Assembly: GCA_902778125.1 (NCBI GenBank)
Contig: CACYWH010000009.1
Span: 1 to 48,281, forward strand
Origin: an uncultured Erysipelotrichaceae bacterium
GTDB lineage: Bacteria > Bacillota_I > Bacilli_A > RF39 > UBA660
DNA: 48,281 bases
Reading direction: 5' to 3'
The stretch's first letter is position 1; the number at the start of each line of letters is the position of its first letter. This document shows, piece after piece, positions 2 to 750 of this stretch. The position numbers and the translations under genes were made by a program. A model generated the notes under the pieces. That model did not search any database. It saw only the letters and a list, made by a program, of their open reading frames with translations, and was not told the origin of the DNA.

Positions 2-697
2 ATAAGTAGCGATAGTACAAATACAGTACTCTTAGCAAAATATAATTTACTAGTTGGAGATGTATACAACAAGAATGGAAGTAATTGGGAATTTACGAAG
101 ACATTAACATCAAGTGATGCTGGATATGGATTACAAAGTGAGACAGCAAAAGGATCTTATAGCGGATGTACTGACTATACAGGAGTAGTGGCCTTTTCAG
201 GAAAAGGCTACTGGGATAATGCAAATTGTGTATCAGATGGTTCAGGTACAACTCCATGTTCAGGAACATCAGGATTAAAGAGTGAATATGCAAATTCAGC
301 AAATGCAGCAGGTAAAACTGGAAATTATTCAATACCACTTCCATATGTATATAACAGTAGTATGTCAAGTGTAGTACCAGAGTATATAACATATAATAAT
401 TCATGGAGAGCAGCACAAGATAATGGATACACAATTGCATATTATGTAGAAGGATATGTAAATACATTAAAGAGTTTAGGAGCATCAAATAATATAACAG
501 GAAGACTATTAACATATGAAGAAGCAAATAGTTTATCAAGCACAATAAAAGGTAATTGGTCTTATTGGCTTGGCTCTGCTTACAATCAGTACAGCGTTAG
601 GTTCGTGTATGGTGGCAGTATGTACAGCAACTACTTCTGGGATGATAACCACAACGGCGTTCGCCCGGTTATAGTTGTCAGTACGTCTGAATTCTAA
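2..697 (+). CDS. C-terminal part of a surface protein with a C-type-lectin-like end (5' truncated)
   Basis: An open frame runs in from the left edge, so the start lies outside the window; an internal ATG-free reading (from ISSDSTNTVL) continues without a break into the part that begins MAFSGKGYWD. About 231 codons are visible, ending in TAA. The C-terminus has the pattern RLLTYEEA, then YWLGSA, then GVRPVI, which resembles the ends of DUF6273/FGE-like (C-type lectin fold) domains. The gene at 7200 shares the GVRPV motif. From about 566 to the stop, codon use changes sharply: 15 of 28 codons between 581 and 664 end in C, in a genome that otherwise prefers A or T. Such proteins in related genomes often have a pilin-like N-terminus, but that part cannot be seen here. 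The function is unknown; display at the cell surface is inferred. Confidence 0.75.
   Translation: MSSDSTNTVLLAKYNLLVGDVYNKNGSNWEFTKTLTSSDAGYGLQSETAKGSYSGCTDYTGVVAFSGKGYWDNANCVSDGSGTTPCSGTSGLKSEYANSANAAGKTGNYSIPLPYVYNSSMSSVVPEYITYNNSWRAAQDNGYTIAYYVEGYVNTLKSLGASNNITGRLLTYEEANSLSSTIKGNWSYWLGSAYNQYSVRFVYGGSMYSNYFWDDNHNGVRPVIVVSTSEF
581..697 (+). other. Candidate diversity-generating retroelement variable region
   Basis: The last ~38 codons hold 53 G/C of 114 bases by my count (about 46%), well above the rest of the gene. They are rich in TAC, AGC, AAC, TTC, CAC and GGC, which are the products expected when AAC codons of a template repeat are changed at adenines. The stretch sits at the extreme C-terminus, on the lectin-fold end (GVRPV), and finishes in a GC-rich block at 652-667. 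Known diversity-generating retroelements have this layout. No reverse transcriptase or template repeat is visible in the window, so this is a hypothesis. Confidence 0.4.
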
Positions 698-719
698 TCA
701 TTGATATGCGATATTATTT

Positions 720-750
720 AAAATAAAACTTTTAAGTTTTATTTTTTTAT
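720..750 (+). terminator. Terminator after the surface protein gene
   Basis: AAATAAAACT (721-730) pairs with AGTTTTATTT (735-744) around a four-base loop and is followed by a T-run. The stem is AT-only, so weaker than others here, but it stands 23 bases after the stop codon. Confidence 0.6.

Follow-up and report, generated by a model that had tools for sequence, protein, structure and literature searches.

The 3' end of the surface protein gene at the start of contig C9 (positions 566-670) is probably the variable repeat (VR) of a diversity-generating retroelement (DGR), located at the C-terminus of a secreted pilin-like protein and still being written by a reverse transcriptase (RT) and a template repeat (TR) outside the assembly. 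DGRs are bacterial machines that deliberately scramble chosen letters of a surface protein. An adenine-specific pattern of change, and templates accompanied by RTs in relatives, were both found in this analysis; the organism's own RT and template would lie beyond the assembled contigs, and the window copy would still be written. An active remote target was considered more likely than a relic. The window, 48,281 nt in length, is contig C9 from base 1, and the host draft genome (G000) comprises 1.27 Mb in 50 contigs and is 87% complete. The features are listed in Table 1.

Table 1. Positions of the predicted DGR target features (window coordinates unless a locus or contig is named)
Feature	Position	Strand	Remarks
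Pilin-like surface protein gene, 3' part (231 codons and stop)	2..697	+	Open frame; 5' part beyond contig start
Constant 5' border, WLGSA codons	566..580	+	Invariant in the six own copies; similarity to the G254 and G160 template repeats begins here
Variable region, NNC/NNT-type codons	581..655	+	34 variable columns, 31 with A among their states
GC-rich block GGCGTTCGCCCGGTT, likely IMH (initiation of mutagenic homing)	656..670	+	Unique in window; TR/VR divergence point in relatives
Constant C-terminal tail (IVVSTSEF) and stop	671..697	+	Common to the six copies
3' flank without two-hairpin element	698..741	+	Its sole hairpin (724-741, TAAAACT-TTTA-AGTTTTA) resembles a terminator and precedes T's
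Two-hairpin element	L110 (G000:C34) 393-450; L111 216-275; L112 220-280; G160:C12 near 1560-1610; G254:C22 after VR

The gene is cut by the contig start. Its surroundings are those of a core chromosome, with ribosomal protein genes including L3, L2, S3, L5, and L6, secY, rpoA, an rRNA operon, and a glmS-like gene at 849-2645 (named by eye from its sequence). A phage origin of the gene was rejected on the basis of this setting and because no pilin relative was detected in viral contigs, phage or plasmid records. A full-length homologue of 413 aa (L055, from the record of isolate RUG840, a second genome of the genus) has the same C-terminal tip and is 77% identical to the window protein. Its N-terminus carries the N_methyl prepilin motif (PF07963, E=1.1e-7), as does a further full-length homologue, L103; in the window fragment itself no such motif is visible. 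N-terminal halves with MKKRGFTLVELLAV sit on other contigs of G000. They run out where C3, C19, C15, and C27 end, and most open with a prepilin motif, for example MKKRGFTLVELLAVIAILAIL; an additional, disrupted half is found at the end of C30. The assignment to prepilins comes from these halves and from the homologues. At residues 183-226, DUF6273 was matched with E=4.7e-5, just over Pfam's cut-off. The variable region is C-terminal, as placed in the first-pass annotation. AlphaFold2, run on a three-row alignment, gave an unusable model (mean pLDDT 33) and no confirmation of a lectin fold, and a PDB profile search returned only pilins, matched at the N-terminus. From these data the target is predicted to be a secreted protein of the type IV pilin-like, DUF6273 type. 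In genome G160 (L094, L096), the variable tip also sits on camelysin-like N-termini (PF12389, weak) that are not of the prepilin type, which could reflect modular exchange of anchors.

At positions 581-664, 15 of 28 codons end in C, exactly as counted in the first-pass annotation. Among 9,938 windows of 28 codons from the 31 ORFs of the window, the maximum elsewhere is six, and C-ending codons amount to 4.0% overall. The G+C content is 46.5% at 581-694, matching the earlier estimate of about 46%, and 47.0% at 566-697, whereas the remainder of the gene has 33.2% and the window as a whole 29.6%. A difference of 46% versus 30% could indicate that foreign GC-rich DNA was imported into an AT-rich genome, its origin then explaining the codon usage. 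However, the deviating composition is limited to the VR and the IMH while the constant flanks are host-like, and templates of DGRs from the same family have an equally AAC-rich makeup. The numbers of changes at A and at other residues per copy relative to the templates, given below, also disfavour an import, which is hardly credible.

The region 500-700 is represented by six copies in G000, on contigs C9, C34, C26, C39, C43, and C7, none of them more than about 700 bases from the end of its contig. Since these C-terminal copies as well as the N-terminal halves are located at contig ends, the assembly broke in the central stretch common to these genes, which form a family of at least six members situated beside housekeeping genes. 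Among the copies, 34 of the 75 columns of 581-655 vary. A is among the states in 31 of them, and the remaining three (646, 649, and 655) are C/T third positions. Pairwise difference amounts to 25% in the VR, third positions making up 7% of it. In the 93 bases before the VR it is 6.5%, of which third positions account for 57%, and beyond the VR it is 3.9%. The copies thus differ about four times as much in the VR as just upstream, almost solely at codon positions 1 and 2. A contrast of this kind is left behind by mutagenic retrohoming and would not be expected of drift, selection, or recombination alone.

Compared to a template inferred from the own copies, that is, from the same sequences it explains, 10-17 of 33 adenines and 0-3 of 65 other residues were changed per copy. 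In C26 and C39, 10/33 and 17/33 adenines were changed, respectively, with no substitution at any other residue. The adenine-type changes in AAC codons anticipated in the first-pass annotation were recovered among the six paralogues. An even spread of paralogue differences over all bases, which had been named there as an argument against a DGR, was not observed; differences are restricted to template-adenine columns. The possibility that one of the six copies is the template was rejected, all six being coding VRs with scattered A-derived states. Ahead of its VR, the copy on C7 (L109, reverse strand) has a frameshifting deletion of about 60 bases; it may be a pseudogene or the product of an assembly collapse.

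Ordinary divergence of paralogues without any DGR, in which they recombine and a lectin-like surface is under diversifying selection, was weighed against the same data. Six paralogues do exist, and about 370 bp including the VR are shared between C34 and contig C75 of genome G006, so that segments move between genes or species unless assemblies are chimeric. Yet changes are confined to template-adenine columns, third-position change is nearly absent, and real templates with RTs exist in relatives. Recombination shuffles variants but cannot make changes adenine-specific, and recombination with a paralogue, the main alternative of the first-pass annotation, is disfavoured by this pattern. Divergence without a DGR is thus very improbable. 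The stretch shared with G006 extends over positions 1-380 of G006:C75 (L056, RUG840) and 1-375 of G000:C34 (L110), which belong to different species. The VR is identical, the only two base differences lie upstream, and similarity is lost about 10 bases past the IMH. This sharing may be due to recent transfer, to gene conversion, or to chimerism of an assembly.

Template repeats are present in the related genomes G254, G160, G330, and G390. In G254, which represents another genus of the same family, a cassette consists of target gene, template repeat, a MutS-domain-I (MutS_I) protein, bAvd, and an RT bearing the motifs SQ and YMDD. Five of the six own copies align to its template without gaps, and so does C39 if a 3-base insertion is disregarded. 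A is present in this template at 30 of the 35 variable columns of the own copies versus 9 of the 66 constant ones (Fisher p=8e-13; the columns are not fully independent). When the template was slid along the alignment, no signal was obtained at offsets 1, 2, 4, and 5, and a weak one at 3 and 6 that stems from codon periodicity. With the own inferred template as query against 22 genomes, the genuine templates of two other genera, in G254 (79%) and G160 (77%), ranked above the VRs of these genomes, and matches of about 66-73% to template-like repeats beside RTs were obtained in further genera.

For G254, targets could be compared to the TR of the same genome. The cis target is changed at 18/39 adenines and 0/59 other residues, and two remote targets on other contigs at 19/39 and 3/59, and at 20/39 and 2/59, respectively. 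Taken together, the three targets confirm that remote writing occurs in G254. The cis target (L099 2451-3717, minus strand) is divided into two overlapping frames, by which the N-terminus is separated from the VR; a frameshift or an assembly error could be responsible. In G160, a template/variable repeat pair is found on C12 (L094 1411-1890), a 25-kb contig without an RT, and the only RT detected in this genome is located on another contig beside a different template. Service in trans may therefore be usual. In both G254 and G160, template and variable repeat bear GTTCGCCC and part immediately 3' of it. The block GGCGTTCGCCCGGTT occurs only once in the window even if three mismatches are allowed (0.05 expected). 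It is GC-rich, located at the 3' end of the VR, and corresponds to the point where TR and VR part, and the homing signal suspected at this place in the first-pass annotation is accordingly seen as a likely IMH.

Related DGR RTs (E<=1e-40) were detected in 166 of 386 sampled genomes of the family (43%) and in 118 of the 251 best ones (47%). Within the genus, DGR RTs are present in G002 and G014; the ones in G002 go with a template of another type. RVT_1 matches in G007, G008, G012, G015, and G017, and another two in G002, were discounted because their sequence was not DGR-like or no TR lay nearby. The accessory proteins bAvd and MutS_I beside RTs were observed in relatives only. In G254 and G014, MutS domain I is a separate small gene adjoining bAvd, and in G002 (L045 340-1857, minus strand) a DGR RT is fused to this domain at its C-terminus (PF01624, E=3.8e-5).

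In the 87%-complete G000 assembly, no RT was found by PF00078. A DGR-RT-specific profile was also negative in G000 and positive in four further genomes searched alongside, all four of which had contributed to the profile; an RT simply missed by Pfam was for this reason rejected. A single BPP-1 RT query, run without a control, had no match in G000 either. A template repeat was likewise not found in this assembly, so that the whole-genome search for both components suggested in the first-pass annotation came back empty. Absence from a complete genome had been named as the decisive result, and the present genome is incomplete. Absence from an 87% draft is weak evidence, since RTs are common in the family, two genomes of the genus contain them, and a template without an RT on its contig is known from G160. 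The earlier proposal of a DGR region served in trans is consequently upheld as to the DGR, by the adenine-specific pattern and the templates beside RTs in related genera, and is left without its partners in the own assembly.

The missing components could also mean that the copies are relics, written by a DGR in the past, with RT and template since lost and only drift and recombination at work now. The third-position changes common to the window copy and C43 (TGATAAC versus TGACAAT), both without the 3' hairpin element described below, and the damaged C7 copy with its deletion and frameshift are compatible with such a loss. On the other hand, zero non-A changes versus 10 and 17 of 33 A changes in C26 and C39 are expected of recent writing, the assembly is incomplete and broken within this very gene family, and DGR RTs occur in nearly half of the better family genomes (47%). 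A relic is therefore unlikely, though it keeps some weight. If the copies are still targets, an RT/Avd complex would reverse-transcribe the template RNA, erring at adenines, and the cDNA would replace the stretch between WLGSA and the IMH block GGCGTTCGCCC. AAC/AAT codons would mostly be rewritten at the first two positions with C or T persisting at the third, which would explain the excess of C-ending codons. No fewer than five sister genes elsewhere in the genome share the same inferred template, whose real counterpart in this species would be close to TTGGCTCTGCTAACAATCAGAACAACGTTAGGAACGTGAATGGTGGCAGTATGAACAACAACAACTTCTGGAATGACAATAACAACGGCGTTCGCCC in sequence and accompanied by a DGR RT.

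A two-hairpin element follows the VR in C34, C26, C39, the cis target of G254, and two targets of G160, and thus occurs in three genera. The first hairpin is short and GC-rich with a GAA or GTAA loop; in C34, C26, and C39, an 8-bp stem with a GAA loop lies 29 bases 3' of the GGCGTTCGCCC block. The second hairpin reads GGGAGCGA...GGA...GGTCCC in G000 and G160, and a search of 26 genomes with this pattern (up to three mismatches) gave hits only after VRs. Predicted pairs partly co-vary, 4 of 12 being changed on both sides in an alignment of five sequences, a small sample. Rfam contains no family for the element. Phage DGRs have a hairpin/cruciform downstream of the VR, with a stem of 7-10 bp and a GRNA loop, which is not universal for membership, and in BPP-1 it is needed for efficient target recognition (PMC3240598). 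The two-hairpin element is a possible target-recognition element.

The element is absent from the 3' flanks of the window copy, C43, and C7, and a downstream hairpin/cruciform of the phage kind was not found for the window copy. This copy may be written less or not at all, which is a lead only. Since it has no two-hairpin element and, like C43, deviates at two non-A positions (C/T at 646 and 649), it is perhaps rarely written or derived from another template. At these positions both copies read TGATAAC, the other four TGAC followed by a T-ending codon, hinting at a second or older template. In G000 and G254, element-bearing copies show 1, 0, 0, and 0 non-A changes versus 2, 3, 1, 3, and 2 in element-free ones; in G160 the values are 3 and 7 versus 3 and 12. 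As G160 is not clear, this weak trend is not claimed. It is a doubtful suggestion at present that, among dispersed pilin-like tips served by one template, the element decides which copies are written and which serve as a silent stock of old variants, the window copy being of the stored kind. With two classes of targets at hand, the role of the element in choosing remote targets is directly testable. The six-copy gene family, the prepilin N-terminus, and the absent 3' hairpin element had not been foreseen in the first-pass annotation.

Comparison to known systems revealed both common and distinct traits. The DGR of Bordetella phage BPP-1 (Mtd/TR/Avd/Brt) has an adenine-limited C-terminal VR and a GC-rich IMH as well, and the same cassette parts are found in the related genomes. 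Unlike in BPP-1, the target is cellular, chromosomal, and pilin-like, several targets are dispersed, RT and TR are not adjacent and were not found in the own assembly, and relatives possess a MutS_I accessory protein; MutS-like accessory proteins have been described (PMC10053308), as have modular targets with C-terminal VRs (PMC8144416). Models of other DGR targets show DUF6273 as a C-type-lectin-like domain (PMC10743442), and VRs at the end of DUF6273 domains are known (PMC11792537). Among such targets (tentaclins, phages nd4/nd12; Faecalibacterium prophages; PMC10743442, PMC11792537), the C-terminal VR of the DUF6273 domain in Faecalibacterium phages is similar, but these are phage proteins, whereas a prepilin-type N-terminus beside housekeeping genes is found here. 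Cellular targets linked to pilins (DUF1566 group, PMC6642488) also join a variable or lectin-like domain to a pilus-type protein, but the N-termini here are of the type IV prepilin (N_methyl) or camelysin-like type, and the VR domain family differs by Pfam. Multiple VRs occur in 28.6% of 948 non-redundant DGRs, which likewise combine a single template type with many targets (PMC6642488); in contrast, the targets described here are scattered over at least six chromosomal loci and fall into two 3'-flank classes. In the literature searched, neither a dispersed prepilin-type target family in this lineage nor the two-hairpin element is described.

A hint in raw sequence has thus led to a cellular DGR system with several unlinked pilin-like target genes in uncultured, probably rumen, bacteria, in a family of which more than 40% of the sampled genomes carry a related RT. 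If the system is active, the tips of surface appendages would be rewritten at many loci from one template, and the bacteria would have a means of varying adhesion or of escaping phages.
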